Below are positions 25,554 through 48,908 of a stretch of DNA of 64,000 nt, one piece after another. Below the pieces are notes generated by a model that made no database searches, was not told the DNA's origin, and saw only the letters and a program-made list of their open reading frames with translations. The position numbers and the translations under genes were made by a program. Each line of letters starts with the position of its first letter. Position 1 is the stretch's first letter. The stretch is from Candidatus Muproteobacteria bacterium. Lineage in GTDB: Bacteria; Pseudomonadota; Gammaproteobacteria; Acidiferrobacterales; Sulfurifustaceae. The DNA lies in contig DAIDLH010000008.1 of assembly GCA_027449605.1 (NCBI GenBank), positions 62,001 to 126,000 on the forward strand, given 5' to 3'.

Positions 25554-26975
25554 TCAGTGCGCCGCCGCCGGAGCGGGAATCGCCGCCACGACGGGTTTGC
25601 TGCCTTGGATGGTTTTCCACAGGTTATAGGCCATGAGCAGCATGCCGCTCAGGAAGAAGAGCCCGCCGAGGGTGCGCACGATGTAGAACGGATGCATCGC
25701 CGCGACCGATTCGACGAAACTGTAGGTCAGCGTGCCGTCGGTGTTGACCGCGCGCCACATCAGGCCCTGCATCACGCCGGCGATCCACATCGACGAGATG
25801 TACAAGACAATCCCGATGGTTGAAATCCAGAAATGCGTCTCGATGAGCTTGACGCTGTAGATCTGACGGCCGAACAGGCGCGGGATGAGGAAGTACATCG
25901 CGCCAATCGACACCATGCCGACCCAGCCGAGCGCGCCCGAGTGCACATGGCCGATGGTCCAGTCGGTGTAGTGCGACAGCGCGTTCACGGTCTTGATCGA
26001 CATCATCGGGCCCTCGAAGGTGCTCATGCCGTAGAACGACACCGACACGATCAGGAACTTGAGGATCGGGTCGGTGCGCAGTTTCTGCCACGCGCCGGAG
26101 AGCGTCATGATGCCGTTGATCATGCCGCCCCAGGACGGCGCCAGCAGGATCAGCGAGAACACCATGCCGAGCGACTGGGTCCAGTCGGGCAGCGCGGTGT
26201 AGTGCAGGTGATGCGGGCCGGCCCAGATGTAGGTGAAGGCCAGCGCCCAGAAGTGCACCACCGACAGGCGATACGAATACACCGGCCGCTCCGCCTGCTT
26301 GGGAATGAAGTAATACATGATGCCGAGGAAGCCGGCGGTGAGGAAAAAGCCGACCGCGTTGTGGCCGTACCACCACTGCACCATGGCGTCCTGCACCCCG
26401 GCGTAGACCGAGTACGACTTGGTCCACGACACCGGCACTTCGAGGTTGTTGAACACGTGCAGCACCGCGATGGTGAGGATGAACGCGCCGTAGAACCAGT
26501 TGGCGACGTAGATGTGGCTCACGCGGCGCTTGATCAGCGTGCCGAAGAACACGACCGCGTAGGCGACCCACACCAGCGTGATCAGGATGTCGATCGGCCA
26601 TTCCAGTTCGGCGTATTCCTTGGAGCTGGTGATGCCGAGCGGCAAACTCACGGCCGCCAGCACGATGATGAGCTGCCAGCCCCAGAAGGTGAACGCCGCC
26701 AGGCCGTCGCTGAACAGGCGCACGTGGCAGGTGCGCTGCACGACGTAATAAGAGGTGGCGAACAGGGCCGAACCGCCGAAGGCGAAAATCACCGCGTTGG
26801 TGTGCAGCGGGCGCAGGCGGCTGAAAGTCAGCCAGGGAATGTCGAAGTTGAGCACCGGCCACGCCATCTGCGCGGCGATCAGCACCCCGACCAGCATGCC
26901 GACGATACCCCAGATCACGGTCATGACGGCGAACTGCCGGACGACCGTATAGTTGTAGGTTTCCTGTTGGGCCAT
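25554..26975 (-). CDS. ccoN: cbb3 oxidase catalytic subunit CcoN
   Basis: The 473-residue heme-copper oxidase subunit has about twelve membrane segments. Conserved histidine sites for heme b, b3 and CuB are visible in [33 protein letters not shown] and [12 protein letters not shown]. It reduces oxygen with high affinity, so the cell is equipped for microoxic respiration. It heads the ccoNOQP-GH cluster. An FNR-type box lies about 150 bp upstream at 27127-27140. Confidence 0.97.
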
Positions 26976-27126: not shown

Positions 27127-27140
27127 TTGACCTAGATCAA
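27127..27140. promoter_or_regulatory. FNR/Anr-type box upstream of ccoN
   Basis: TTGACCTAGATCAA matches the FNR consensus (TTGAT-N4-ATCAA) at nine of its ten specified bases. It is in the 180-bp gap before ccoN, as expected for oxygen control of cbb3 oxidase. The FNR-like protein encoded at 29218 is the obvious candidate to bind it. Confidence 0.8.
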
Positions 27141-27155
27141 GCTGGCACGGCGGGA

Positions 27156-27758
27156 TCAGCCGGTGGAAACCGGCCCCACGCCGATGTCCCAGAGAATGAC
27201 GGTCGCGGCGAGCACCGCCACCAGCGTCACCAGACCCACGGCGAGCACGGCGCTGGAGAATAGAAAACCGCGCTCCGCCGGAATCCCCATGATGATCGGC
27301 ACGCCGGTATAAAGCAGGTATACGGTGTAAGCGAGCACCGGCAGGCCGATCAGGAGATTGAGCCACAACACCGGATACAGCAGCATGATGCCGGAGAGGA
27401 AAAGCGGCGTCGCGGTATACGCCGCCAGCGCGATGCACTGCGGCAGCGTCTGTTTGGCGCCGTAGGTTTTTCCCATCCAGTGGATCAGCTTGCCGATGGT
27501 GAACACCGCCACGAGAACCGTGAGGTACGACAGGACCGCGATCCACAGCGCGCTGTCGGGCGTGAGCTTGTGCACCTCGCGCGCCGCCACCTGCCAACCG
27601 ACCTGCGTGGTGCCGACATAACCCGCCAGCGGCGGAATCGCGGCGAGCAACAACACGTGGGAACAATAACATCGGCCGATGGTGCAGCTCTCCTTGCGGA
27701 TCGCCTTCCATTCGTCTTCCGGATGGGACAACAATCCCCATACGTGGCTCAGGATCAT
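27156..27758 (-). CDS. Yip1-family membrane protein
   Basis: The 200-residue protein has about five hydrophobic segments (from residue 38 onward). The N-terminal signature VWGLLSHPEDEWKAIRKE is typical of bacterial YIP1-domain proteins. ATG 27758 is preceded by GGGGAG, so a longer in-frame start is not used. Function is unknown; such genes often sit near respiratory or transport clusters. Confidence 0.82.
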   Translation of the reverse strand: MILSHVWGLLSHPEDEWKAIRKESCTIGRCYCSHVLLLAAIPPLAGYVGTTQVGWQVAAREVHKLTPDSALWIAVLSYLTVLVAVFTIGKLIHWMGKTYGAKQTLPQCIALAAYTATPLFLSGIMLLYPVLWLNLLIGLPVLAYTVYLLYTGVPIIMGIPAERGFLFSSAVLAVGLVTLVAVLAATVILWDIGVGPVSTG

Positions 27759-28012
27759 GCCGGTTCTCCCCTCGATGTAATAGCGGATTGTCCGGCGCAG
27801 TTTCCTGCAAACCATCGCGGGCGTCAATGCCGGAAGCGCGTCGGTTCGACTCGATGACGGATGCAAAAGCGGCGCGCGTCGCCGGTTTTTGGTCGACGAA
27901 GACGTGCGGCCGTCGTCCCCAAAAACCGACTAATTCGCTCGGGTGCGCTTGGCGAGACACCGCTGGCATCCTCACGTCAAACATCCTGACGACCTCGATG
28001 GCGTTGCGCATG

Positions 28013-28183: not shown

Positions 28184-28822
28184 CTAGAACCGCCGGCCTA
28201 CCCCCACGAAATACGCCCACGGGTCGATGGCCACGTCGAACTTGCCGAGCAACGACGAGTCCGCCTTGGTATCGATGTCCATGCGCCAAACGGAAGCATT
28301 GAAGAACCAGTCCTTGTCGATGTCCACGTCGACACCGGCCTCGGCCGCCAAGCCGAAGGAATCGTCCAGCTTGATCGACGTGCCGGCCAGCGCCCCGGTC
28401 GTCTTCTCGCTGAAGAACGCGGTGTAGTTCACGCCGACGCCCGCGTACGGACGCACGCCCGACTTCGGCGAAAAGTTGTAAAGCAGGATCAGCGTCGGCG
28501 GCAGTTCCTTGGTCTCGGCCACCTTGCCCAGAGTGTTGTGCGTGATGTCGTGACGGAACGGCAGCGCGCCCAGCAACTCCACGCCCACGTTGTCCGTCGT
28601 CATGTACGTGAAGTTGACCGCCAGGTTGGTGCTGCTGTCCGCCTCGACCTTGCCGCCGACGACCGGAACGGTGCCGCTTTCGCCGGTGGGGGCGACGTGG
28701 CCGAGGCCGCCGCGGATCAGCCAGTCGCCCTTCTGTACCGCGTGCGCCGGCACGGCGCCGGCCGCCAGGCCGAGCGCGATCAATGCTCCAAGAATGTGTC
28801 GTTTGCGAGATATGGTGTGCAT
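28184..28822 (-). CDS. ompW: OmpW-family outer membrane protein
   Basis: The 212-residue precursor has a signal peptide (about residues 1-28, ending AHA). The OmpW beta-barrel pattern follows: KGDWLIRGGLGHVAP, then TYMTTDNVGVELLGALPF, LLYNFSPKSGVRPYAGVGVNYT and the C-terminal VGVGRRF ending in Phe. OmpW forms an eight-stranded barrel with a hydrophobic channel. In E. coli its gene is controlled by FNR, and here an FNR-like site lies at 28940-28953. Confidence 0.92.
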   Translation of the reverse strand: MHTISRKRHILGALIALGLAAGAVPAHAVQKGDWLIRGGLGHVAPTGESGTVPVVGGKVEADSSTNLAVNFTYMTTDNVGVELLGALPFRHDITHNTLGKVAETKELPPTLILLYNFSPKSGVRPYAGVGVNYTAFFSEKTTGALAGTSIKLDDSFGLAAEAGVDVDIDKDWFFNASVWRMDIDTKADSSLLGKFDVAIDPWAYFVGVGRRF

Positions 28823-28939
28823 GCTACCCCCTCGTTAACCTTAAGATATGACTGAATCGAACCCTGAAACCCGGCTGCCGCGATTCGCGCATGCCCTGTT
28901 CCATGGATGGTATTTTCCGCGTCGTGCCCGGGCGAACAC

Positions 28940-28953
28940 TGACCCAGGTCAAT
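28940..28953. promoter_or_regulatory. FNR-like box upstream of ompW
   Basis: On the minus strand this reads TTGACCTGGGTCAG, eight of the ten specified bases of the FNR consensus. It is 118 bp before the ompW start. Its weak right half lowers confidence. Confidence 0.5.
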
Positions 28954-29014: not shown

Positions 29015-29184
29015 TTCGCCCTGAGCCTGTCGAAGGGCAACGGCCGATTGATCGGTTTATCCGGCAGCAAGTCCGTTCGTGCTTCGATATGCCCGTCCCG
29101 GACCGTTCGCACTTCGACAAGCTCAGTGCCAACGGTCGAAGCCTGTGGTGAGCTTGTCGAACCAGGCCCGGCACGAACGGACTT
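29015..29184. repeat. Nested inverted repeats with TTCGACAAGCTCAG-type units
   Basis: The 395-bp gap between ompW and the fnr-type gene holds no gene. It contains CCCTGAGCCTGTCGAAGGG (near 29019), CTTCGACAAGCTCAG (near 29111) and GTGAGCTTGTCGAAC (near 29152). All are enclosed by a perfect 14-bp inverted pair, AAGTCCGTTCGTGC (29069-29082) and GCACGAACGGACTT (29171-29184). Such units are widespread mobile palindromes in proteobacterial intergenic DNA. Confidence 0.75.
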
Positions 29185-29217: not shown

Positions 29218-30444
29218 TCAGGCGCGTTTTCTGGCGAGACAGACGCCGATGTCCTTGTCGGCTTCCAGCACGTGCGTGTGCAGCCAGGTCTTCACGAAAT
29301 CCAGCGCCTGGCGTTCGGCGTCCGCGGCGCCGGCCTTGATCCGCGTGCGGTATTGTTTCACCTGTTTCACCAGCTGCGCGTGATCCGAGCAGTGCTGCGT
29401 CAGGTCCGGATAGTCGATCTGCTGCATCAGGCGCTCTTCCTCGGCGAAGTGATAGCCGGTGTACTCGAGCAGCTCGTCGAAAATCCGGCACAGCTCGGAG
29501 CGGCGGGTCCGCCGCCGCCACGCGCCGTAGAACCGGTTGCCGATGTCGAACAGTTGCCGGTGCTGCCGGTCGATGACTTCGATGCCGATGCCATAGTCCG
29601 GATCCCAGTCGAGCAATCCGGCCCGATCCCCGGCGACACGCGCGGCAAGCGGACTCGGGTACGCGGCGCCCTCGCTGGCGGGTTTGGGCGGCTCGTGTCC
29701 GGCCGCTGCGCCGGCGAGCGCCTTGAGTCGCGGCACGTCGACCAGCCGGACATGCCGCCGCTCGACCGCGAGCAATCCGTCCTCCTGGAAACGCGTGAAC
29801 AGCCGGCTCACGGTCTCGTCGGCGAGACCGAGGTAGTTGCCGATGTCGATACGCGACATGCTCAGGCGATATTCCCGCGCCGCGAATCCGCGCTCGTGGA
29901 AACGCGCGGACAGGCTGAGCAGGAACGCCGCCAGCCGCGCCGGGGCGCTGTTCTTGGTGATCTGCATGATGTGCTTGTCGCGCAGAATCTCCTTGCTCAT
30001 GATGCGCACCGTCTGGCGCATCAGGCTCGGTATCTGGGCGCCGAGGTTCTCGAGCTGGTCGAACGGGATCTCGCACACGCTCGAACGTTCCAGCGCCACC
30101 GCGCCGCAGCAGTGCGCGCCCGAGCTGATCGCCTCCATGCCGAACAACTCACCCGGCAGGTGCAGGCCGGTGACCTGCTCGCTGCCGCTCTCGGTGAAGA
30201 ACGAAGTCTTGAACGAACCGGACTTGACCGCGTAGACGGACGTGAAGCTGTCGCCGGAGCGGTACAGGTATTCGCCGCGCTTCACCGGGCGGCGGCGCTT
30301 GATGATGCGGTCGAGCAGCGCCAGGTCGGCGCCTTCGACGCCGATCGGCAGGCACAGTTGAAACAGCGCGCAGTCGCGGCACTCGACTTTGAGCGTCGGC
30401 GGGCGTATCGCGTTCATGGAATCGGCGATGGACATGGCGCACAT
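29218..30444 (-). CDS. FNR-type regulator fused to a C-terminal hemerythrin domain
   Basis: The 408-residue protein joins two oxygen-responsive modules. Residues 1-245 are a full FNR protein. It has cysteines C22, C25 and C31 plus C124 (in SSVCEIPF), placed as the [4Fe-4S] ligands of E. coli FNR, a cyclic-nucleotide-type barrel, and a helix-turn-helix IGNYLGLADETVSRLF keeping the Glu-Ser-Arg contacts for TTGAT. Residues about 283-400 are a hemerythrin domain with all seven di-iron ligands visible: His in DRQHRQLF, His and Glu in YHFAEEERLM, two His in THQ-type TQHCSDHAQL, and His and Asp in LHTHVLEADKD. It probably controls the cbb3 and ompW genes beside it. FNR-type boxes lie in its own upstream region. 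Confidence 0.93.
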   Translation of the reverse strand: MCAMSIADSMNAIRPPTLKVECRDCALFQLCLPIGVEGADLALLDRIIKRRRPVKRGEYLYRSGDSFTSVYAVKSGSFKTSFFTESGSEQVTGLHLPGELFGMEAISSGAHCCGAVALERSSVCEIPFDQLENLGAQIPSLMRQTVRIMSKEILRDKHIMQITKNSAPARLAAFLLSLSARFHERGFAAREYRLSMSRIDIGNYLGLADETVSRLFTRFQEDGLLAVERRHVRLVDVPRLKALAGAAAGHEPPKPASEGAAYPSPLAARVAGDRAGLLDWDPDYGIGIEVIDRQHRQLFDIGNRFYGAWRRRTRRSELCRIFDELLEYTGYHFAEEERLMQQIDYPDLTQHCSDHAQLVKQVKQYRTRIKAGAADAERQALDFVKTWLHTHVLEADKDIGVCLARKRA

Positions 30445-30545: not shown

Positions 30546-30559
30546 TTGACGTAAATCAA
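30546..30559. promoter_or_regulatory. FNR-type box in the fnr-ccoI divergent promoter
   Basis: TTGACGTAAATCAA matches the FNR consensus at nine of ten specified bases. It lies 102 bp before the FNR-type gene and 192 bp before ccoI, so it could serve autoregulation, ccoIS control, or both. Confidence 0.75.
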
Positions 30560-30574: not shown

Positions 30575-30588
30575 CTGATCTGGATCAG
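30575..30588. promoter_or_regulatory. Second FNR-like box in the same promoter
   Basis: CTGATCTGGATCAG is a perfect palindrome keeping TGAT-N4-ATCA but not the outer T and A of the consensus. It is centred 29 bp from the first box, almost three helical turns. Confidence 0.5.
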
Positions 30589-30616: not shown

Positions 30617-30750
30617 CGGTGGCGGAAAACCCGCGGCGTTTGTAGCGGCTGGACAGGCTCGGCAACAGCGCCGCTGCGCGAGACGGGAATCGGTTAGAAT
30701 GCGGCTTTCATATCGGCCGTCGTTCCGGCCGCAGGCGCCCGAAACCATCC

Positions 30751-33321
30751 ATGTCCACGCCCGCCGCGATCGCCTCCCCCGAACCCGCCGCCGTCGGCGC
30801 CTGTTTTCATTGCGGCCTGCCGGTTCCCCCGGGCACGGATTTTTCCGTGGACATCGACGGCGCGCGCCGGCCGATGTGCTGCAAGGGCTGCGAAGCGGTG
30901 GCGCGCGCGATCGTCAGCGGCGGCCTCGGCGACTACTACCGCTACCGCACCGCGCAGGCGCCGACGGCGCGCGAAGTCGTGCCCGAGTTCCTGCGCCAGA
31001 CCGCGGTCTACGATCATCCCGAGGTGCAGAAAAGTTTCGTGCGCGTCGAAGACGAGCACGTGCGCGAGGCGGCGCTGATCCTCGAGGGCGTCACCTGCGC
31101 GGCCTGCGTGTGGCTCAACGAGCGGCATCTGGCGCGCCTGCCCGGCGTGCTCGCGGTGCACATCAACTACGCCACGCACCGCGCGCGCGTCAAATGGGAC
31201 GAGCGTCGCGTGCATCTGAGCGACATCCTCCAGGCGGTGAGCCGCATCGGCTATCTCGCGCATCCGTTCGACCCGAGACGCCATCAGCAGAAACTCGAGA
31301 ACGACCGGCGCGTGCTGCTGCGCCGGCTGGGCGTGGCCGGCGTCTTCGGAATGCAGGTGATGACGCTCTCGGTCGCGCTGTACGTCGGCGACTGGTCCGG
31401 CGTCGAGACGCAATACCGCCGTTTCTTTTACTGGGTCAGCCTGCTGCTGACGCTGCCGGTGCTGCTGTACTCGGCGCAACCGTTTTTCCGCTCCGCCTGG
31501 CGCGACCTGCGCCGGTTCCGCGCCGGCATGGACGTGCCGGTGTCGCTCGGCGTCGCCGCGGCGTTCGTGGCGAGCCTGTGGACCAGCATTACCGGCGTCG
31601 GCACGGTTTATTACGACTCGGTGTGCATGTTCGTGTTCTTCCTGCTCACCGGCCGCTACTTCGAGCTCGCCGCGCACAAGCGCGCCACCGAATCCTCGGA
31701 AGCGCTGGTGCTGGCGACGCCGGCGACAGCCACGCGCATCATCGAAGTCGCCAGTCCCTCCCCCTCATCCCCATCCCTTCTCCCTCAGGGAGAAGGGGGC
31801 GAGCCGAGAGAATCTACTTATATGACCGAGACCGTGGCGGTGGCGGAGCTGCGGCGCGGCGACCGGGTGTGCATTCGTCCCGGCGAACCGGTGCCGGCCG
31901 ACGGCACGGTGACGGAAGGGCGATCGAGCGTCGACGAGTCGCTGCTCACGGGCGAGTCCCTGCCGGTGACCAAAGCGCCGGGTCAAACGCTCGTCGGCGG
32001 TTCGATCAACATCGAAAGCCCGCTCGTCGCGCGCGTCGAGAAAACCGGTCCCGACACGATTCTGTCCTCGATCCTGCGGCTGCTCGATCGCGCCGCCGCG
32101 GAAAAGCCGCGGCTCGCGCAACTGGCCGACCGCGTCGCCGGCGGATTCGTCGCCGCGATATTGCTGCTCGCCGCCGCGGTGGCGCTCTACTGGTGGCGGC
32201 ACGACGCCGCGCTGTGGCTGCCGGCCACGATCGCGGTGCTGGTGGTCACCTGCCCCTGCGCGCTGTCGCTCGCGACGCCGACGGCGCTCACCGCCGCGAC
32301 CGGCCGTCTCACGCGCCTCGGCCTGCTGGTCACGCGCGGGCACGCGCTCGAAACGCTGGCGCGCGCCACTCACGTCGTGTTCGACAAGACCGGCACGCTC
32401 ACGCAGGGACGGCTGCGGCTGCGCACGATCCGCCGTTTTTCCGGCATGACCGAGACCGAATATCTGGCGCTCGCCGGCGCGCTGGAACGCCACTCCGAAC
32501 ATCCGATCGCGCGCGCGCTGGTCGCGGCCGCGCCGGCCTCCGCGCCCGCGGCCGTGGACGTGATCAACACGCCCGGCGCCGGCCTGCGCGGCGCCGTGGG
32601 CGGCGAACTTTTTTTCATCGGCACGCCGGCTTATGTCGAGGAACAGACCGGCCTGACCGCCGACGCCGGAACGCTCGACGAGCTGCGGCGTCACGGCGAA
32701 ACGCTGGTGCTGTTCGCGGGACGCGAAAAAATTCACGCCGCGTTCGCGCTGAGCGACGAGTTGCGGCCCGGCGCGGCGGAGCTGATCGCCGAACTCAAGC
32801 GCCGCGGCCTGACCGTGCGGCTGTTCACCGGCGATCACGAAGCCGCCGCGCGCCGCGTGGCCGCGTCGCTCGGCATCGACGACCCGGTCTGGGACCTGCG
32901 CCCGGCCGACAAGCTCGAACGGGTCCGGGCGCTGCAACAGCGCGGCGCGGTTGTGGTCATGGTCGGCGACGGCGTGAACGACGCGCCGGTGCTGGCGGCG
33001 GCGCAGGTGTCCGTCGCCATGGGCGGCGGCGCCGCGGTTGCGGCCAGCAGCGCCGACATGATCCTGTTGTCGCAGCAGCTGCCGCATCTCGCCGACGGGA
33101 TGAGCGTGGCGCGCCGCACGCTGCGGATCATCCGCGAGAACCTGGGCTGGGCGCTGGGCTACAACCTGCTCGCGGTGCCGGCCGCGGCCGCCGGCTACGT
33201 CACGCCGTGGATGGCGGCGCTCGGCATGTCGACCAGCTCGCTGCTGGTGGTGGCGAACGCGCTGCGCCTCACGCGAGTGCGGAATTCGGAATGGGGAATG
33301 CGGAATACAAACTCGATTTGA
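30751..33321 (+). CDS. ccoI: Copper-translocating P1B-ATPase CcoI (FixI type)
   Basis: The 856-residue copper pump supplies copper for cbb3 assembly. Domains in order: a Cys-rich N-terminus (ACFHCGLPVP and MCCKGCEAV) typical of CcoI, a heavy-metal domain with CAAC near residue 116, membrane helices, the actuator loop with TGES, the ion-binding CPC motif (VVTCPCALSLATP), the phosphorylation site DKTGT and GDGVNDAP. The coding sequence contains an inserted palindromic repeat at about 31753-31815. It adds roughly 20 residues rich in Ser, Pro and Gly at about 334-357 without a frameshift. The last dozen residues are encoded by another repeat, so the C-terminus is extended. ccoS follows. Confidence 0.95.
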   Translation: MSTPAAIASPEPAAVGACFHCGLPVPPGTDFSVDIDGARRPMCCKGCEAVARAIVSGGLGDYYRYRTAQAPTAREVVPEFLRQTAVYDHPEVQKSFVRVEDEHVREAALILEGVTCAACVWLNERHLARLPGVLAVHINYATHRARVKWDERRVHLSDILQAVSRIGYLAHPFDPRRHQQKLENDRRVLLRRLGVAGVFGMQVMTLSVALYVGDWSGVETQYRRFFYWVSLLLTLPVLLYSAQPFFRSAWRDLRRFRAGMDVPVSLGVAAAFVASLWTSITGVGTVYYDSVCMFVFFLLTGRYFELAAHKRATESSEALVLATPATATRIIEVASPSPSSPSLLPQGEGGEPRESTYMTETVAVAELRRGDRVCIRPGEPVPADGTVTEGRSSVDESLLTGESLPVTKAPGQTLVGGSINIESPLVARVEKTGPDTILSSILRLLDRAAAEKPRLAQLADRVAGGFVAAILLLAAAVALYWWRHDAALWLPATIAVLVVTCPCALSLATPTALTAATGRLTRLGLLVTRGHALETLARATHVVFDKTGTLTQGRLRLRTIRRFSGMTETEYLALAGALERHSEHPIARALVAAAPASAPAAVDVINTPGAGLRGAVGGELFFIGTPAYVEEQTGLTADAGTLDELRRHGETLVLFAGREKIHAAFALSDELRPGAAELIAELKRRGLTVRLFTGDHEAAARRVAASLGIDDPVWDLRPADKLERVRALQQRGAVVVMVGDGVNDAPVLAAAQVSVAMGGGAAVAASSADMILLSQQLPHLADGMSVARRTLRIIRENLGWALGYNLLAVPAAAAGYVTPWMAALGMSTSSLLVVANALRLTRVRNSEWGMRNTNSI
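31775..31797. repeat. CCCTTCTCCC palindrome inside ccoI
   Basis: A perfect 10-bp inverted repeat, CCCTTCTCCC-TCA-GGGAGAAGGG, preceded by CCCTC/ATCCC units. It is the same family as the intergenic elements at 21442-21464 and 22074-22097, here read through in frame as part of the ccoI coding sequence. Confidence 0.85.
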
Positions 33322-33577: not shown

Positions 33578-33746
33578 CGGCGGGTGGATTCGGTAGAGGT
33601 TTCCGGCGCGCTGGAATACACTTAAGTCGCCCTGTAGCCTGAGAAGGCCATGAGCGCAGACAAATACAATCGAAAAAACGCGCCCCTTGCGGTCCGGTCC
33701 GCATCGCCCGGCTATTCCCCCGCGGTATCACCATCGAGGAGAGACC

Positions 33747-34460
33747 ATGCGCAAAATCATGCTGCTTAACGCCAAGGGCGGCTGCGGGAAGAGCACGCTC
33801 GCGACCAATCTCGCCAGCTATTACGCCGCGCAGGGAAAATCGGTGGTGATCGCGGACTTCGACCGGCAGGGATCGAGCATGGAATGGCTCGAAGCGCGCC
33901 CGCAGGACCGGCCGCCGATCCGCGGCATCGCCGCGTGGCGCGATCCGCTGCGCGTGCCGCGCTCGACCGACTACGTAATCATGGACGTGCCGGCCGGCGC
34001 GCACGGCGCGGAACTGACGGCGCTGGTGCGCCGCGCGCAGACGGTGATCGTCCCGGTACTGCCGTCACCGACCGACATCCGCGCCGCGGCGCATTTCATA
34101 CACGAGGCGTTGCTGGTCGGGAAAATCGTGCGCGACGAGACGCGGCTGGCGGTGGTCGCCAACCGCGTGCGCGAAAACTCCTCGCTTCAGAACACCATGG
34201 AGAGCGTGCTGAACAGCATGAACATCTCGTATTCCACGCTCAACACCCAGATCTACCACAACCTGCAGCGCTTCCTGTCGCGACTGCGGATTCCCTTCGT
34301 CGCCACGCTGCGCGAGAGCCAGAACTACCTGGTGTCGGACGCGCGCGGACTGGGCATCTTCGACCTCAACCGCTCGCAGGTCACGCGCGACATCGAGCAA
34401 TGGGAGCCGTTGCTCAAGTGGCTCGAGAGCAAGCGCAGCATTCCCGAACCGGTGAATTGA
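33747..34460 (+). CDS. ParA/MinD-type ATPase
   Basis: A P-loop ATPase of 237 residues with deviant Walker A KGGCGKST at residues 10-17, an ADFDRQGSS segment and the YVIMDVPAG Walker B-like strand. ATG 33747 has GAGGAG upstream. No parB or plasmid gene is near, so this is an orphan ParA of the kind that positions protein complexes. It is followed by a diguanylate cyclase gene 168 bp on, a weak hint of polar localisation. Its cargo is unknown. Confidence 0.88.
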   Translation: MRKIMLLNAKGGCGKSTLATNLASYYAAQGKSVVIADFDRQGSSMEWLEARPQDRPPIRGIAAWRDPLRVPRSTDYVIMDVPAGAHGAELTALVRRAQTVIVPVLPSPTDIRAAAHFIHEALLVGKIVRDETRLAVVANRVRENSSLQNTMESVLNSMNISYSTLNTQIYHNLQRFLSRLRIPFVATLRESQNYLVSDARGLGIFDLNRSQVTRDIEQWEPLLKWLESKRSIPEPVN

Positions 34461-34628: not shown

Positions 34629-35951
34629 ATGATGCGCGGCAAGCATTGCGGCGCCGGCGGGGGATCTTATCGGGTGAATCCGTTTTTCTTCACAAATCTG
34701 TCGCTGCGAACCCGTCTTCTGATCGCCATGGGCATGGTGTTCATTCCGCTCCTGGCGGTCGCTCTCGGTTCCGGCGTTTTCCTGCAATACGCCGCCGGGC
34801 AGTTCAAGCGGCTGACGGAACAACCCGTCTATAAACTCCAGACCACCTCGCGCCTGCAAAACCAGATCCGCAGCACCCATGCGCTGCTGGAAAATTACGC
34901 CGCTGAACCGCAGGCCGCATTGCGCAACCGGTTCATTGCGGAAGCGCGGGTCGTGGAAAATATTTTCGTCGAAATCCTGGCGAAACCTTTCCTCGCTCCG
35001 CGCGAATACAGCCTGCTCGCCGGCGCCCGTCAGGAATGGAAAGACAGCCTGCTGTTGGCCGAGCAGACGCTGGTTCCGAATCCGCCCCGGTCGGCGCTGT
35101 CCCGGTTCGACCAGCGCGTGCGTCATGTGCTGTCGACGCTGGATCAGATCTACGGCGCCAGTTACGACGAGATCGGCGCGCAACGCGCGCAGATCGACAA
35201 GGCGGAAAACCGTTTCCTGCTGATCATCGTCGCCGCCGTCGGCGTGGGCCTGATCGGCGCCGTGGCGGGAGTGCTGTGGCTGGCGCGCTCGGTGCTGGTG
35301 CCGTTGCGCGAATTCGAAAAGGGTCTGTCGCATTTCGCGAATGACAACCTCAGCTACCGTCTGGACTTGCACAACGACAACGAACTCGGACGCCTGGCGC
35401 GCGACTTCAACAACATGGCCGAGCGCCTGATGGAGCACAAGGTCCGCCTGGAAGAGCTGTCGAGCCGCGACGGGCTGACCGGTCTTTACAACCGCCGCGA
35501 ATTCGAGGACCGGCTGCGCGAGGAGGTGCAGCGCGCCCGGCGCTACGGCAAGCCGCTGTCGGTCATGCTGCTCGACATCGATCACTTCAAGAACATCAAC
35601 GATCGCTACGGGCATCAGGCCGGCGACGAGGCGCTGATCGCGGTCGCGGACCTGATCCGCCTGAGCGCGCGGCCCATGGACGCGGTGTGTCGCTACGGCG
35701 GCGAGGAGCTGGCCGTGATCCTGCCCGAGACGGACGAAGCCGGCGCCGGCATCGTCGCCGAGCGCATCCGCGCCGCGATCGCGGATTCGCTCACCACCAC
35801 CTCCGAGGGAAACGAAATCCAGATGACGGTGAGCATCGGTTACGCCGCCTTCCCCCAGGACGGCGATACCGGCCCCGGGCTCGTCAAAGCCGCGGACCAG
35901 GCGCTCTACGCCGCCAAGCAGGGCGGGCGCAATCTGGTGCGCAGCCACTGA
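34629..35951 (+). CDS. Membrane diguanylate cyclase (HAMP-GGDEF)
   Basis: The 440-residue protein has two membrane helices (about residues 29-52 and 197-217) enclosing a helical periplasmic sensor. A HAMP domain follows (about 218-272) and a C-terminal GGDEF domain. The active-site motif is CRYGGEELAVILP (GGEEL) with the upstream Asp-x-Asp site DIDHFKNINDRYGH, so it should make cyclic di-GMP. No RxxD inhibitory site is evident before the signature. The ligand is unknown. It opposes the EAL protein at 13981 in activity. Confidence 0.93.
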   Translation: MMRGKHCGAGGGSYRVNPFFFTNLSLRTRLLIAMGMVFIPLLAVALGSGVFLQYAAGQFKRLTEQPVYKLQTTSRLQNQIRSTHALLENYAAEPQAALRNRFIAEARVVENIFVEILAKPFLAPREYSLLAGARQEWKDSLLLAEQTLVPNPPRSALSRFDQRVRHVLSTLDQIYGASYDEIGAQRAQIDKAENRFLLIIVAAVGVGLIGAVAGVLWLARSVLVPLREFEKGLSHFANDNLSYRLDLHNDNELGRLARDFNNMAERLMEHKVRLEELSSRDGLTGLYNRREFEDRLREEVQRARRYGKPLSVMLLDIDHFKNINDRYGHQAGDEALIAVADLIRLSARPMDAVCRYGGEELAVILPETDEAGAGIVAERIRAAIADSLTTTSEGNEIQMTVSIGYAAFPQDGDTGPGLVKAADQALYAAKQGGRNLVRSH

Positions 35952-36048: not shown

Positions 36049-37512
36049 TTACTGGCGTTCCCGATTGCCGCGCAGCTTGAGCAGTTGCTGTTCACCCGCG
36101 GCTATCTCTTCGCTGGAAAGCTCGCGTTTCAGGCGAACGACGGCGTCCACCGCCGGTTCGCTGCCGGAAGCCGCCGCCACGCTGTACCAGACATAGGCGC
36201 CAATCGTGTTGCGCGCGACGCTGCGGCCGTTCTCGTACATTCGCGCCAGCGTATACTGCGCCTTGGAATCGCCGCCGAGCGCGGCGCGGCGAGTCCAGTA
36301 AAACGCCCGGCGTTCGTCGCGCGCCCGTTCCGGTCCGTCGAAATACAAACGTCCAATACGCTCCTGTGCCTTGGCATCGCCCTGCTTCGCCGCCTGGAAC
36401 AACTTGACCAGTTCCTCCGGAACCTGGCGTTGATCCTCAAAATCGGCCGACGTCGATTCGGCTTGTGGCGACGCGACATCATGCGCCGATGACCCTGCCT
36501 GCTTCACGGTCTTATGCACCACCACGGCCGTCAACACGACCGCGGCAAAAACGGCCGCGAACTTGCGCCAGCGCGGCGCGGCCGGTGGCGCCGACACGCC
36601 CGGCGGCGCCAGCGCGCGCGACAGCTCGGCGGCGCCGGCGAAGCGTCGCGAGGGATCCTTTTCCAGGCAACGCATCACCACCGCCTCGAGCAGCGGCGGC
36701 GTCGTCGCGAGCAGCTTGCGCGGCGGCACCGGACGCTCCTTGATCTGGCGGAGCGCGACTTCCACGGGCGTGGCGCCGGAAAACGCGCGCTGACCGGTGA
36801 GACATTCATACAGGATGAGCCCGAGCGCATAGAGGTCGGTGCGCTGGTCGACGGTTTTGCCCTGCGACTGTTCCGGCGCCATGTAGCCGGGCGTGCCGAT
36901 GACGGTCTGCGTGGTCGTGGTGTTGCTGCCGAGGGCGCGGGCGATGCCGAAGTCCATCAGCTTCACCAGTCCATCGCGCGCGAGAATGACGTTTTCCGGC
37001 TTCAGGTCGCGGTGCACCACGCCCTGCGCGTGCGCCTCGCCGAGACCGGCGGCGATCTGGCGCGCCAGATCGGTGACGCGTTCCGGCGACAGTTTGACCG
37101 CGCGCTTCAGATAAGCCCGCAGGCTCTCGCCGTCCACGTACTCCATCGTGATGTACGCGAGATCGTCGACGCGGTTGAAATCGTAGATGCGGCAGACGTT
37201 CTTGTGCGTGATGCGGCGCGCGAGGCGGATCTCGTCCTTGAACCGCTCCATCATCGCCGGGTCGCGGGCGATTTCGGGACGCAGCAGCTTGAGCGCCAGG
37301 ATTTCGCCGGTCTCCCGGTCGCGCACCCGGTACACCAGACCCATGCCGCCCTCGCCGAGGTTGTCGAGCACCTCGTAGCGGGCGGCGAGCAGCGCGGCCA
37401 CGTCCGGCGCCGGGCCGATAGCGGCCGCTGGCGGCGAAGCCAGAACCTGGGTTTTGAGATCGCGAGAATCCATTTCGGAAAATTCCACGGGCGCGGGGGC
37501 GCCGGCGCACAT
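36049..37512 (-). CDS. Eukaryotic-type Ser/Thr protein kinase with C-terminal Sel1 repeats
   Basis: The 487-residue protein has a cytoplasmic kinase domain (about residues 46-300) with the glycine loop LGEGGMGLVYRV, catalytic HRDLKPENVIL, DFG (MDFGIA) and APEQ, all intact. A single membrane helix (about 313-335) leads to an extracytoplasmic part with two to three Sel1-type repeats (for example KQGDAKAQERIGRLYFDG and LGGDSKAQYTLARMYENG). Sel1 repeats usually bind proteins or wall fragments, so a sensor kinase is plausible. The start may be ATG 37473 (MDSRDLKTQ). Targets are unknown. Confidence 0.92.
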   Translation of the reverse strand: MCAGAPAPVEFSEMDSRDLKTQVLASPPAAAIGPAPDVAALLAARYEVLDNLGEGGMGLVYRVRDRETGEILALKLLRPEIARDPAMMERFKDEIRLARRITHKNVCRIYDFNRVDDLAYITMEYVDGESLRAYLKRAVKLSPERVTDLARQIAAGLGEAHAQGVVHRDLKPENVILARDGLVKLMDFGIARALGSNTTTTQTVIGTPGYMAPEQSQGKTVDQRTDLYALGLILYECLTGQRAFSGATPVEVALRQIKERPVPPRKLLATTPPLLEAVVMRCLEKDPSRRFAGAAELSRALAPPGVSAPPAAPRWRKFAAVFAAVVLTAVVVHKTVKQAGSSAHDVASPQAESTSADFEDQRQVPEELVKLFQAAKQGDAKAQERIGRLYFDGPERARDERRAFYWTRRAALGGDSKAQYTLARMYENGRSVARNTIGAYVWYSVAAASGSEPAVDAVVRLKRELSSEEIAAGEQQLLKLRGNRERQ

Positions 37513-37788: not shown

Positions 37789-39375
37789 TCACTGGGTGTT
37801 ATCCCAGAAATGTTTTAGGTTCGCGGTGCGACAAGAGTTGGTAGTGCGACCGTGCTCTCGATCAAGCTCCCGCAGTCTGATTGGGTCGAGTAACGCGTTT
37901 GAGAGGTCACCGCCATGCGAACGAGGCCCATTCCCCATATTCCGGTTTAGTTCTGTCCACATTGCGACTTCCTTGCGTCCGATTTTCTTGCCGGCCTCGG
38001 TGATTCCCATGCCGCTTGGTAAATGGATCGCGTCCTTTTGCCAGACTCCCAGCAACACTTGTCCAGGAGTGATAACCTGGCCCTCTCCGCCCATGAACTT
38101 GCCTGATTCCGCGATGACTACTCGCGCGCCTTTTCCCATCACGTAGATTGCTGGCCCATGGGCATTCGCCGTCACCCCCGCCAGTTCGCCTGCGGTCCAA
38201 GAGCCTTTGGAATTTTTTCCCGGCTTGAGCATGGTGTGATCATGGCAGCTTAACAACTCGTACATGACATTCTCCTCGCAGGTATTCGTTGCCACCAGCA
38301 TCTTCCGGTCTCGTACACGATCATCTCCATAATTTACCGCATAACTACTCTCACCAGGCCCGTAGTGATCTCCCACATTGCGCCCTTGTGCCGTCGGGTC
38401 GCTAACCCACTCAAATTTCATGCAGTTAAAAAGCGATGGTGCGCCAACGCCATCAAGTGGAATTATGTCTTTAATGCTAAACTCACCGGCCGTCACCCCC
38501 GCCCCGCTCGCCGGCTGCGAGAACGATTGAATCGCCAGTTGCCGTCGCTCGGCGCCGGTCCGGCCGCCCGCGGCGGCGGTCACGGCGCCGCCGAGCATGG
38601 CAAGGCCTTCCCGATTCCGCTGCGCGTTACGCTCCACCATCGCCTTGTATGCCGCCTCGTCCTCGGCCTTCTTTTTTGCGGCCGCGGCTGCCTGGATTGC
38701 GCTCAGCTTTTCGTTGGACCGGGTCTTCGCTTGTTCGTATGCGGGGTCGTCGTCGTAGCGCCTGCCCTCGACGTACCGGTTTACGACCTCGCCGTCCTTC
38801 ACGTACTTGCCGTAAACTATGCCCTTGCCGGTCTGTGGATCGACTGACGAGATTCCCTCATAGACCCCGGCGGCACCTGTAAACAGGGCGTCATCGAGGT
38901 AACTGCCATCGGGGTAATAGAGTTTTCCCGTGTGGTAGCGCCAGTCGTTGTAGGTGAGGTTCTTGCCGTTGTACTGCACGTCGTTGGCCATCGACCCTTC
39001 AAACAAGAGCCGGCCGCTGGCGGTGTAGACCCGCCCCTGTTCGAGTTTTGCGTTCCGGAAAGTTCCCACGTACTTCCACCCGTTGGCGCTTGTGTACGTT
39101 CCATCTCCATAGATACTCCCCCCGATCATCCAGCCGACGTACTTTGCCTGCTCGCCATTCTTAAGCTTCACGATGTGCGTGCCCTTGCCTTCGGCGCGGC
39201 CGTCTCTGCAGGGGCCCGTCCAGCTCATGCTTTCCACGTTGTTCTGCACCCACTCCTTTTGCCATTGCGTGATACCGCAGCCCTCGGTCGTGGTGTAGGT
39301 GTTATCCGGCAAGAACGCGCAACCATCGAGCAAGGATACAACAATGCCAACAAAAACAAGTCTGGTCATCTTCAT
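37789..39375 (-). CDS. MORN-repeat lipoprotein of unknown function
   Basis: The 528-residue precursor has a lipoprotein signal (MKMTRLVFVGIVVSLLDGC, Cys19). MORN-type repeats follow (about residues 50-180: GKGTHIVKLKNGEQAKYVGW, then IYGDGTYTSANGWKYVGTF and FEGSMANDVQYNGKNL). After a linker rich in Ala/Lys (about 240-280) comes a C-terminal domain of about 240 residues that I do not recognise. It contains CEENVMYELLSCHD and the AGVTANAHGPAIYVM segment. ATG 39375 has GGGAG upstream. It forms a pair with the next gene in an accessory insert and is somewhat AT-richer than the chromosome. Confidence 0.8.
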   Translation of the reverse strand: MKMTRLVFVGIVVSLLDGCAFLPDNTYTTTEGCGITQWQKEWVQNNVESMSWTGPCRDGRAEGKGTHIVKLKNGEQAKYVGWMIGGSIYGDGTYTSANGWKYVGTFRNAKLEQGRVYTASGRLLFEGSMANDVQYNGKNLTYNDWRYHTGKLYYPDGSYLDDALFTGAAGVYEGISSVDPQTGKGIVYGKYVKDGEVVNRYVEGRRYDDDPAYEQAKTRSNEKLSAIQAAAAAKKKAEDEAAYKAMVERNAQRNREGLAMLGGAVTAAAGGRTGAERRQLAIQSFSQPASGAGVTAGEFSIKDIIPLDGVGAPSLFNCMKFEWVSDPTAQGRNVGDHYGPGESSYAVNYGDDRVRDRKMLVATNTCEENVMYELLSCHDHTMLKPGKNSKGSWTAGELAGVTANAHGPAIYVMGKGARVVIAESGKFMGGEGQVITPGQVLLGVWQKDAIHLPSGMGITEAGKKIGRKEVAMWTELNRNMGNGPRSHGGDLSNALLDPIRLRELDREHGRTTNSCRTANLKHFWDNTQ

Positions 39376-39448
39376 CGTTTTAACTCCCATTTATAATTGC
39401 TTATTTGCTTAGATGCACTCTCACTGGAAACCCAAGTCGGAGGGGAAT

Positions 39449-39542: not shown

Positions 39543-40652
39543 TTATTTAATAAGCCCCAGGGCTTTAGCTCCTTCAATGAGTTTACGGACATTCCGCTGT
39601 TCCCTGGTCTCCTCATTCTGCGGCTGGCTCGTTAGTCCCTGCGATTGTGGCGGCGGCGCAACCTGCGCCTGGGGGGAAGCGATCGGCATTTGTTTTCTGG
39701 ACTCCGCGCACTGCTGCTCAACGGCGGCCAGCCACGCTTTCCGTTGGGCCCCAGGTTGTTGTGGCATTAGTCGCGCTTGTTCCTCGGCATACGCGCAAGG
39801 ATTCGCTTTCATCCGATCGCTCTGCGCTTGCATTTCTTTCATTCTCGCCGCTTGTTCGGCAGCATTTCGCTCCTCGGCTTCCTGCCTCCGTCGAGCCTCC
39901 GCAGCCGCCGCCGCTTCCGTGGCAACACGCTGTTCCTCATCAAGCCGCATCTTGGCCTCAATTTGCCTGCACTCTCTAAGTTCGCGCTCGGTAGTGCGCA
40001 CGATCCCCAGGCAGGAAACGTTAACGCGCGCAGATGTATCCTCGTTTGGATCGCGCGGGCGTGGCATTTGCGGTCTGCGAGGAGAAAAACAATCGGCATG
40101 TGCTCCCATCTGACAATCAATCATTGGATTGTTTCTGGATTCCCGTACCCTGCGTTCGTATTCCTCATCTTGCCTTTTCTTTTCCGCCTCTTTTTGCCGC
40201 TTCAATCTTTCAAGCTCTTGTTGTCTGCGAGGCTCCGCAGCGGTGCTTTCTTGTTGACGCCGCTGGCGTTCTGCTTCGGCCCTTCTTTGTTGCTCTGCCT
40301 GCCGCTGCTCCTCAATAGCCGTCTGGTCCACGAATGTGTAGCTCGTACGCACGTTGTAAGGCTTTGCGCAATCAACTGGCACGTTGTAAAGCCATGGATA
40401 GGTGACGCTGGTCCGCGGAACGATCGTCATGGCAGGCGTATTACCTGACAGGTAAGAGCCGTCCTGGCCTTCGTAAATGTAGTTGACCGTGATCGTCAGG
40501 AGATGATTGGTGTTGTTGGAAATAATCACCCCTTTGCATCCGTTGGCAGAGGGAATCAATTGCAGGCTGACCTCTGCAAAGGCAAAGACATTTGAAGTTG
40601 CCAGAAAAAACAGGATCGTGGTTGAAATGATTTTAAGAAACATATGCTGCAT
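39543..40652 (-). CDS. Exported coiled-coil protein of unknown function
   Basis: The 369-residue precursor has a signal peptide (about residues 1-26, ending NVFAFA). A compact beta domain (about 27-110, with SANGCKGVIISNNTNHLL) follows, then long Arg/Glu/Gln/Ala-rich helices (about 115-175 and 210-290) likely to form coiled coil. The end is Gln/Pro-rich. Several cysteines in the linker (IDCQMGAHADCFSP) suggest disulfides in the periplasm. It lies upstream of the MORN lipoprotein gene on the same strand. The pair may form an envelope complex; no family is recognised. Confidence 0.78.
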   Translation of the reverse strand: MQHMFLKIISTTILFFLATSNVFAFAEVSLQLIPSANGCKGVIISNNTNHLLTITVNYIYEGQDGSYLSGNTPAMTIVPRTSVTYPWLYNVPVDCAKPYNVRTSYTFVDQTAIEEQRQAEQQRRAEAERQRRQQESTAAEPRRQQELERLKRQKEAEKKRQDEEYERRVRESRNNPMIDCQMGAHADCFSPRRPQMPRPRDPNEDTSARVNVSCLGIVRTTERELRECRQIEAKMRLDEEQRVATEAAAAAEARRRQEAEERNAAEQAARMKEMQAQSDRMKANPCAYAEEQARLMPQQPGAQRKAWLAAVEQQCAESRKQMPIASPQAQVAPPPQSQGLTSQPQNEETREQRNVRKLIEGAKALGLIK

Positions 40653-42954: not shown

Positions 42955-45093
42955 ATGTCCAATAAGTCCCTGACCGCCGCCGAACTCGAGGTAAAACTCG
43001 ACGAGTCGCTCGACCCGGTGTTGTCCTCGCGCCGCACGGCGGCGGCGCTTGCCAAGGCGTTGGCCGACATCGAACGCGCGCAACAGGATTTCGTCCTCCA
43101 CTGGGTGGACATCATTATCAAGACCAACGCCGAAATGGCCTACCAGTTCGCCGCGCGCGCACCGGAGGCTTTCCGGCTGATGCCCGTACCGGCCATCGAA
43201 GAATGGGTCATCCACGCGATGGACGTGTACGACAAGCAGGGTCTTTATCCTGGTTGCGCGGCGCTTGGTCAGCTGCGGGCCTTCGCCGTAGAAACCGCCG
43301 AGGCTGCACACGGCATCGCGCTGGAGGAAATCCGGCATGTTCTGGAGCTGTTCGTGCAGGGTCTGGCCGGACGGCCGCTCAAGGTCGAGGAAGCCGCGGA
43401 AACCTGCACCGACACGGCCACGCTGTTCCTGCCCGCGCGGCTCCACAAGTTTGCCGAACGGCATGACAACTTTCGTCTCTACAAGGCCATGGCGGCCCAC
43501 CTCTGGGCACAAACCTGGTATGGCACCTGGCGCCTTGCGCCGGGAACATCGCCGCTGACTGAAACGCTTTCAACGTATCGCGATCCGGAAAAGGCCTTGC
43601 GTCTTTTTCATGCGCTCGAAACCCTGCGTCTGAACGCCTGCATCGCGCGCGAGCTGCCGGGGCTGTATCGCGACATGCAGGAGGTACAGCGGTTGAGCGG
43701 CGAGATGCATTACCCCGCTGCATGGAAACAGGCGATACAACGCCTGACAAGCCTGGAAGCCGGCGTGTCCGACAGCCTGGCGCTGCTGCCGACGTTACAC
43801 GAGGGAGAAATTCCGGCGCCATTCTGTTTCCAGGGCATTCTAAGGCCGGATCGCGCGCAGCAAGCCATGCAGGAACGGCTGACGCGCGAGAAAGAACTGT
43901 TCCGCGAGGCGCTCGGGCAACTGGGCGGAGAAACGGCACAGGCAAAACCGGAGACGGAAACCGGAACCACACCGAACCCACGGCAATATGCCATCGAGCA
44001 GTTGCTCGATCCAGACCATCCAGGGCAATTTATTTTCCGGCTCTTGCTGGATGGCCAGCCGGTTCAGCCGCTGGCGGACATGCGTACGTTGATGGATTCG
44101 ATCATCCAGGACCTCGGACAAATCCCGGAGGACTATCTGGTGGCGGCGGGCGCGGGCGGCTATCGCCAACCAGCGGACGAGAAACGGCCGGAAGACGTAT
44201 GGAAAGGAACTTATCACGAGGAAGGCGCGTTTCTGTACAACGAATGGGATCACCGGCGCAATCATTACCGCAAACACTGGTGCGTGCTGCGCGAGCTCGA
44301 CGTGCACCCGGACAGCGACCCGTTCGTGGCGCGCACGCTGCGCAAATATCACGGCGTGTTGCCGCAACTGCGCAAGACCTTCGAGGCGCTGCGCGGCGAG
44401 AACAAGCTGCTCAAGAAACAGATCAACGGCGATGACGTCGATTTCGACGCGCTCGTGGAAGCGCGCGCCGACATGCAAAGCGGCATGGAGCTGTCGGAGC
44501 GGCTGTTCACCAAGCTGCACAAGTTCGAGCGCGACATCGCGGTCATGTTCATGGTCGACATGAGCGGCTCGACCAAGGGCTGGATCAACGACGCCGAGCG
44601 CGAATCGCTGGTGCTGCTGTGCGAGGCGCTGGAAATCCTCGGCGATCGTTACGCGATCTACGGCTTCTCCGGCATGACGCGCAAGCGCTGCGAGCTGTAC
44701 CGCATCAAGCGTTTTGATGAGCCTTACAACGAAGTTGTACGCCAACGCATCGCCGGCATTACGCCGCAGGATTACACGCGCATGGGCGCGACCATCCGGC
44801 ATCTCACCAAACTGCTGAACGACGTCGAGGCGCGCACCAAATTGTTGATCACGCTCTCCGACGGCAAGCCCGACGACTACGACGGCTACCGCGGCGAATA
44901 CGGCATCGAGGACACGCGCATGAGCCTGATCGAAGCCAAGCGCGCCGGCATCCATCCGTTCTGCATCACCATCGACGAAGCGGCGCGCGACTACCTGCCG
45001 CATATGTACGGCGCGGTGAACTGGACGCTGGTGGACGAGGTACGCAAGCTGCCGCTGAAAGTCTCGGATATTTACCGGCGGCTGACCCTCTGA
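42955..45093 (+). CDS. cbbO: CbbO/NorD-type protein with VWA domain
   Basis: The 712-residue protein is the CbbQ partner. The N-terminal 500 residues are helical. The C-terminal von Willebrand A domain has the MIDAS motif DMSGST near residue 540, then TRMGATIRH and LITLSDGKPDDYDGYRGEYG. In the QO activase CbbO binds the substrate enzyme while CbbQ supplies ATP turnover. Length and pairing are standard for CbbO; NorD is the alternative name if the target is nitric oxide reductase. Confidence 0.9.
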   Translation: MSNKSLTAAELEVKLDESLDPVLSSRRTAAALAKALADIERAQQDFVLHWVDIIIKTNAEMAYQFAARAPEAFRLMPVPAIEEWVIHAMDVYDKQGLYPGCAALGQLRAFAVETAEAAHGIALEEIRHVLELFVQGLAGRPLKVEEAAETCTDTATLFLPARLHKFAERHDNFRLYKAMAAHLWAQTWYGTWRLAPGTSPLTETLSTYRDPEKALRLFHALETLRLNACIARELPGLYRDMQEVQRLSGEMHYPAAWKQAIQRLTSLEAGVSDSLALLPTLHEGEIPAPFCFQGILRPDRAQQAMQERLTREKELFREALGQLGGETAQAKPETETGTTPNPRQYAIEQLLDPDHPGQFIFRLLLDGQPVQPLADMRTLMDSIIQDLGQIPEDYLVAAGAGGYRQPADEKRPEDVWKGTYHEEGAFLYNEWDHRRNHYRKHWCVLRELDVHPDSDPFVARTLRKYHGVLPQLRKTFEALRGENKLLKKQINGDDVDFDALVEARADMQSGMELSERLFTKLHKFERDIAVMFMVDMSGSTKGWINDAERESLVLLCEALEILGDRYAIYGFSGMTRKRCELYRIKRFDEPYNEVVRQRIAGITPQDYTRMGATIRHLTKLLNDVEARTKLLITLSDGKPDDYDGYRGEYGIEDTRMSLIEAKRAGIHPFCITIDEAARDYLPHMYGAVNWTLVDEVRKLPLKVSDIYRRLTL

Positions 45094-48802: not shown

Positions 48803-48850
48803 CTACAACATATTGTGGTTGGCCAAGGTTGTAGGCCCTATACCTAGTTT
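48803..48850. promoter_or_regulatory. Tandem NrdR boxes upstream of nrdJ
   Basis: Two sites fit the NrdR consensus (core C-W-A-T-A-T-A-T-W-G): CTACAACATATTGTGG (48803-48818) and GCCCTATACCTAGTTT (48835-48850). Their starts are 32 bp apart, three helical turns, as known for NrdR operators. They lie just after the -35/-10, where the ATP/dATP-sensing repressor NrdR would block transcription. Confidence 0.72.
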
Positions 48851-48908
48851 TAACTATATAAATTGCACGACAAGTGCTCCACAGGCGGACTCCGGAGGAC
48901 AGGAATCA

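Follow-up and report, generated by a model that had tools for sequence, protein, structure and literature searches.

In Herbaspirillum seropedicae, fnr1, ompW1 and the cbb3 oxidase operon fixNOP are neighbours, and the account of this system describes Fnr1 as the activator of both ompW1 and fixNOP; fnr1 itself is activated by Fnr3, with which Fnr1 interacts (PMC5934665). Hemerythrin domains are known from many protein contexts: a survey of 2016 lists 56 hemerythrin architectures (PMC4919030), and the characterised hemerythrin sensors covered by a review of 2022 are chemotaxis receptors, c-di-GMP enzymes and a P-type ATPase (PMC9388753). The union of a hemerythrin with a DNA-binding regulator is absent from the characterised classes of that review, which also reports that work on full-length DcrH was hampered by insolubility (PMC9388753). 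Here, we describe such a union, encoded beside the genes of a cbb3 oxidase in the window, by which we mean the whole stretch of 64,000 nucleotides that was analysed.

The fusion gene occupies positions 29218-30444 of the minus strand and translates into 408 amino acids with zero internal stops; the plus-strand frame over the same positions is not the gene. Pfam matches above the respective cut-offs were obtained for cNMP_binding (residues 52-134), HTH_Crp_2 (169-243) and Hemerythrin (287-398), and among the NCBIfam models the protein scored 262.5 bits with Fnr PRK11161, for which the cut-off is 228, and 122.1 bits with bact_hemeryth, for which it is 84. By these models it joins a hemerythrin to a signalling output domain, as in the DcrH class. 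The FNR part (residues 1-247, positions 29704-30444) carries Cys22, Cys25, Cys31 and Cys124, that is a CX2CX5C motif and a fourth cysteine in the sensory domain, all of which are kept in the three fusions identified in this study. This part further comprises a CRP-type sensory barrel, a dimerisation helix and a helix-turn-helix with the sequence DETVSR, again present in all three fusions. E-x-x-S-R is the recognition-helix motif of FNR. The C-terminal hemerythrin domain (residues 277-408, positions 29218-29616) provides His295, His332, Glu336, His351, His355, His391 and Asp396, and these seven ligand columns are invariant across 14 aligned hemerythrins, namely the three fusions and 11 sequences from the order. 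The pattern H-HxxxE-HxxxH-HxxxxD formed by these residues is described as the signature of the O2-type hemerythrins (PMC9388753). Thus, the complete FNR apparatus and the full set of seven di-iron ligands, both claimed in the initial annotation, were found.

Between the two parts lies a linker of about residues 248-276 (positions 29617-29703), for which the structural model has low confidence and which evolves fast, its length depending on the homologue; in genome G006 it differs from that of the window. The protein has no visible membrane segment and is predicted to be soluble. As judged from its sequence, a disordered stretch of some 30 residues links a complete FNR, predicted to be of the [4Fe-4S] type, to a bacteriohemerythrin that has the full di-iron ligand set, and the FNR part is predicted to be equipped for cluster binding, dimerisation and the reading of TTGAT/C half-sites.

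An AlphaFold2 model of the full-length fusion (26 sequences; mean pLDDT 79.4) was confident for the FNR part and the four-helix bundle and fell below a pLDDT of 50 at residues 248-284. In a Foldseek search with this model, structures of A. fischeri FNR ranked first (TMt 0.90-0.93 for the first eleven), the modelled FNR part resembling holo-FNR (TMt about 0.9). The hemerythrin domain modelled alone (5 sequences) yielded a four-helix bundle with a pLDDT of 89.8. All eight of its PDB matches at E <=0.001 were DcrH-Hr or the M. capsulatus hemerythrin, and the top two (TM 0.86-0.88) were DcrH-Hr, the domain of an oxygen-sensing receptor. The structures of the M. capsulatus protein include mutants of Leu114, a residue that corresponds to Leu388 of the fusion in the alignment.

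The FNR core shows a change in its hinge. Its dimerisation helix contains Ile153 and Asp156, which correspond to Ile151 and Asp154 of E. coli FNR, and the hinge after this helix is one residue short. In one MAFFT alignment the residue was missing in 3/3 fusions versus 1/85 other FNR rows (L090), and a HMMER alignment to A. fischeri FNR showed the absence of the same residue. The fusions also have a proline near the shortened hinge, as in KHIM-QITKNSAPARL. As the hinge is altered in the same lineage that acquired the fusion, these alignments suggest that the dimer switch was retuned there.

The fusion was found in three of the nine genomes of the window's genus (G000-G008), that is in the window, in G002 (90% identity) and in G006 (71%). 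This genus is probably Sulfuricaulis-like, and the fusion lies at the same place in each of the three genomes. No further FNR-hemerythrin fusion was detected in 57 genomes of the order (E up to 1e-60), in 369 genomes of the class (E up to 1e-80, with no more than 4 candidates evaluated in each), in 48 genomes of a second class (E up to 1e-45) or, among the matches listed, in a 398-genome sample of the phylum searched with the C-terminal 250 amino acids, where up to 6 candidates were evaluated in each genome. These samples overlap, and fusions weaker than the cut-offs were possibly missed. Six hits from the phylum with long or odd frames, read by eye, had a hemerythrin with a partner of the chemotaxis type, with a different one or with none that could be recognised, and FNR was present in none of them. 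Among genome contigs, fusions were present at 2/62 loci; 0/729 matching plasmid records covered 80% of the fusion query, and viral contigs contained three distant hemerythrins only. A literature search found no FNR-hemerythrin fusion, a mention being possible among the 56 architectures listed in the supplement of the 2016 survey (PMC4919030), and nothing that joins Sulfuricaulis and cbb3. The view of the initial annotation that a fusion to a DNA-binding FNR is unusual agrees with this distribution: the architecture is uncommon, with only three instances across all samples searched.

Comparison of the coding sequences gave dN/dS values, for the window versus G002, of 0.14 in the FNR part, 0.25 in the hemerythrin domain and 1.4 in the linker (29 codons); versus G006 the values were 0.22, 0.32 and 0.62, respectively. 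Values below 0.33 in the FNR and hemerythrin parts indicate that both domains are kept. By this measure purifying selection acts on both of them, and the sequence of the linker is little constrained. A frame error with a hidden stop near residue 250 had been named as the observation that would speak against a true fusion; the frame is open here and in the two homologous fusions. The genome of the window is a draft of 132 contigs and those of its relatives are mostly drafts as well. A chimeric assembly and a frame error are ruled out by the recurrence in three genomes at the same place, the open frame and the purifying selection.

To place the fusions among FNR proteins, 101 FNR open frames were reduced to 88 rows by removing identical domains and those below 150 bits. 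In a quick tree of these rows the three fusions formed one clade (SH-aLRT 100), and a more thorough tree, built from 34 selected rows, supported this clade with 100/100. The latter tree grouped the fusions with four unfused proteins, those of G015, G011 and G045 and a paralogue from G002 (support 95/92), and placed the canonical FNR of the window genome (G000:C80) in a different, fully supported group. The unfused FNRs of G015, G011 and G045 adjoin OmpW as the fusion does; ccoI lies on their other side in G015 and G011, and none is visible in the stretch available for G045. As these three proteins stop within a few residues of the end of the FNR part, the hemerythrin was added at the very end of the protein. 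Its nearest free-standing relatives in the order, from G023 and G009, are 43-44% identical to the domain of the fusion.

The paralogue of G002 is an intact, unfused FNR gene (L137 1656-2384) located between ccoI and the fusion, in tandem with the latter, and its product has a hinge of normal length. At the corresponding side of the fusion gene the window holds a stretch of 58 bp (positions 30617-30674, minus strand), of which 55 are identical to coding DNA of this tandem copy; the alignment score was 101 to the G002 copy versus 23 to the window's own fusion gene, with a maximum of 25 in 300 shuffles. We read it as a relic kept after the unfused tandem copy was lost from the window. No such relic was found in G006.

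The initial annotation had placed the fusion between the cbb3 structural genes and ccoIS. On one side lies ccoI, encoding a copper P-type ATPase, in divergent orientation (positions 30751-33321, plus strand); on the other side the order is ompW (28184-28822, minus strand), a gene for a Yip1-family protein and then ccoN (25554-26975, minus strand) with ccoO, ccoP and ccoG on the same strand. The Yip1-domain membrane protein (27156-27791, minus strand) adjoins ccoN in each of the eleven cco loci compared, whether these have the FNR-OmpW pair or lack it. In the DNA that separates ompW from the stop codon of the fusion gene (29020-29170), stretches resembling GAGC-TGTCGAA recur on both strands and have, by eye, the look of a dispersed repeat. 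Farther away, the window encodes a ParA/MinD-like ATPase (33741-34460) followed by a HAMP-GGDEF diguanylate cyclase (34629-35951, plus strand), a serine/threonine protein kinase with a Sel1-type repeat (36049-37512, minus strand), three sizeable open frames with no Pfam match at E 1e-5 (37789-39390, 39543-40652 and 42955-45093) and the large subunit of a ribonucleotide reductase split by an intein that contains a LAGLIDADG endonuclease domain (48813-52175, plus strand).

The three FNR boxes announced for this region at 27127, 30546 and 30575 all exist, and a further one was found at 28939. A perfect box, TTGACCTAGATCAA, precedes ccoN (27127-27140, minus strand) with a TATATT hexamer 28 nt past the box centre. 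Upstream of the fusion gene, the box TTGACGTAAATCAA (TTGATTTACGTCAA on the minus strand; 30546-30559) lies 108 bp before the start; CACAAT stands 28 nt beyond it, at a spacing that resembles class II, and G002 shows the same arrangement. A second, weaker FNR-like palindrome, CTGATCTGGATCAG (CTGATCCAGATCAG; 30575-30588, minus strand), lies in the same promoter region. The perfect box together with the second palindrome is present in the window and in G002 (2/3 fusions); no box with up to 2 mismatches was found before the fusion gene of G006. The ompW gene is preceded by a pattern match, the FNR-like box TTGACCTGGGTCAG (28939-28952, minus strand). When up to 2 mismatches are allowed, the whole window contains 26 matches to the box pattern where 14.8 are expected, so a weak match on its own carries little weight.

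A ccoN match was present in 24 genomes of the order, and the cco loci of 11 of these were compared: the three fusion loci, those of the three nearest unfused orthologues, four from further members of the genus and that of G010. FNR and OmpW are both present in six of them and both absent in five. A box before ompW, with up to 2 mismatches, was found in 6/6 loci, that of G015 being very near the start used, which is possibly wrong. A perfect TTGAY-N4-RTCAA precedes ccoN in every one of the 11 loci, including the five that lack a local FNR, whereas mononucleotide shuffling predicts 0.001 such boxes for the 11 regions together. A -10-like hexamer (at least 4 of 6 positions) stands at class-II spacing from the ccoN box in 9/11 loci, compared with 6% of background positions. 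As the box is perfect even where no local FNR is encoded, FNR control of ccoN is probable with and without a local FNR, and the idea that ccoN needs the local protein is weakened. The proposal that the fusion is the likely local master regulator was only partly borne out: FNR boxes do lie nearby, but the ccoN box is perfect in the five loci as well, the window genome encodes a second, canonical FNR, and the gene whose presence follows that of the local fnr across the related loci compared is ompW.

What might the hemerythrin contribute to such a regulator? The E. coli FNR study gives a rate of about 180 per M per s for the reaction with O2 (PMC4214427), and for DcrH-Hr of D. vulgaris the values given are a kon of 5.3e8 per M per s, a koff of 160 per s, a Kd of 0.3 uM and an autoxidation half-time of 22 min (PMC9388753). 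With these borrowed rates, arithmetic for 1 uM O2 gives a half-time of about 1 h for the FNR cluster versus settling of the hemerythrin within about 1.4 ms. If both sites behave like E. coli FNR and DcrH, the speeds at which they respond to O2 would differ by a factor of more than a million. The dual oxygen sensing suggested in the initial annotation is a reasonable reading of an intact FNR and an intact O2-type hemerythrin on one chain. Our favoured interpretation, which we hold at slightly below an even chance, is that a local cbb3-linked FNR of the Herbaspirillum Fnr1 kind was turned into a two-cofactor oxygen/redox regulator, with a fast, reversible di-iron input beside the slow cluster. 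As in other FNRs, the cluster would keep the protein dimeric and DNA-binding at low oxygen; it would be slow, and regained only by rebuilding. The hemerythrin would serve as a fast and reversible reader of O2, or of redox state, with sub-micromolar affinity, and its state would alter the activity of the cluster-loaded dimer. Coupling would most likely occur through state-dependent contacts of the two tethered hemerythrins, either mutual or with the FNR core; a flexible tether is better suited to such contacts than to the work of a rigid lever. The fusion would target its own gene, ompW and ccoNOP, and would probably stand below the canonical FNR of the genome, like Fnr3 above Fnr1 in Herbaspirillum. 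In the fuller version, a DNA-binding factor would sense oxygen through two unlike iron cofactors of one chain, a [4Fe-4S] switch that is slow and destructive and a di-iron site that is fast and reversible, and the tethered hemerythrins would gate a dimer with an altered hinge. Such a factor would respond to the oxygen level and also to its rate of change; this version seems rather doubtful. Against dual input stand the long, floppy linker, which favours simple tethering over rigid allostery, the ccoN box that is independent of the fusion protein and the occurrence of the fusion in three genomes only.

The same linker, in which no conserved contacts are visible, would suit a hemerythrin that merely travels with the regulator, pursuing its own job as O2 store or carrier and leaving regulation unaltered, so that the fusion couples amounts only. 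Free-standing hemerythrins in related genomes are in line with this; however, a regulator of low copy number is unlikely to make a useful O2 store, and the hinge change common to the fusions suggests an adjusted regulator. We regard such a passenger as unlikely. Alternatively, the tethered di-iron site might act as a shield, catching NO or peroxide before the cluster is damaged, with O2 sensed as by an ordinary FNR. At nanomolar concentration a cell contains so few NO molecules that capturing them one by one could make a difference, and FNR-type clusters are reported to react with NO (PMC4771820), but the ligand set is that of an O2-binding hemerythrin and the nearest folds are DcrH-Hr and the M. 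capsulatus protein, which makes a shield quite improbable. Another proposal is that the di-iron site supplies iron for cluster rebuilding on the same chain. FNR does lose and regain its cluster, and an iron-donating role has been put forward for the hemerythrin-like YtfE (PMC9052748); the RIC/YtfE model is nevertheless missing from the 14 NCBIfam hits of the fusion (E 0.001) and the domain has O2-type ligands, and we give iron donation little credence. An oxygen buffer that keeps O2 off the cluster, as the initial annotation had considered, is very improbable: Mhr, an Anr-regulated, O2-binding hemerythrin of Pseudomonas, is described as epistatic to the cbb3 oxidases (PMC12403760), which makes hemerythrin, FNR and cbb3 one physiology, but a one-to-one reversible binder that equilibrates in milliseconds cannot lower the steady-state O2 at a cluster reacting within about an hour. 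Consequently, if the hemerythrin acts on sensing, it must act by its state, as the two-cofactor reading assumes. As the fusion is predicted to be soluble, it offers a system for measuring how a hemerythrin influences an output that is well understood, and natural controls exist in the unfused orthologues at the same place and the unfused tandem paralogue of G002.

Compared with FNR of E. coli and A. fischeri, the fusion shares the four cluster cysteines, the CRP fold, the dimerisation helix with its Ile and Asp and the E-x-x-S-R recognition helix, and differs by the added linker and C-terminal hemerythrin and by the shortened hinge. With DcrH, an MCP of D. vulgaris and the closest solved fold, it has in common a C-terminal O2-type hemerythrin on a signalling protein; DcrH, however, is membrane-bound, has a chemotaxis output and is described without mention of an iron-sulfur cluster. 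The c-di-GMP hemerythrin proteins also employ hemerythrin as the oxygen or redox input of a signalling protein, whereas their output, as the review presents it, is c-di-GMP turnover without DNA binding (PMC9388753). In P. aeruginosa an FNR-type regulator, a hemerythrin and a cbb3 oxidase belong to one low-oxygen circuit according to the study of Anr and Mhr (PMC12403760), but as separate proteins rather than on one chain. H. seropedicae Fnr1, finally, is likened to the fusion by its description: in both cases a second FNR lies beside ompW and a cbb3 operon. Fnr1 activates this operon and works below a more general FNR, as the fusion probably would, and the fusion carries a hemerythrin where the description of Fnr1 mentions none. 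By this analogy, the circuit in the window is probably of the H. seropedicae Fnr1 kind, with a hemerythrin added to its local member.
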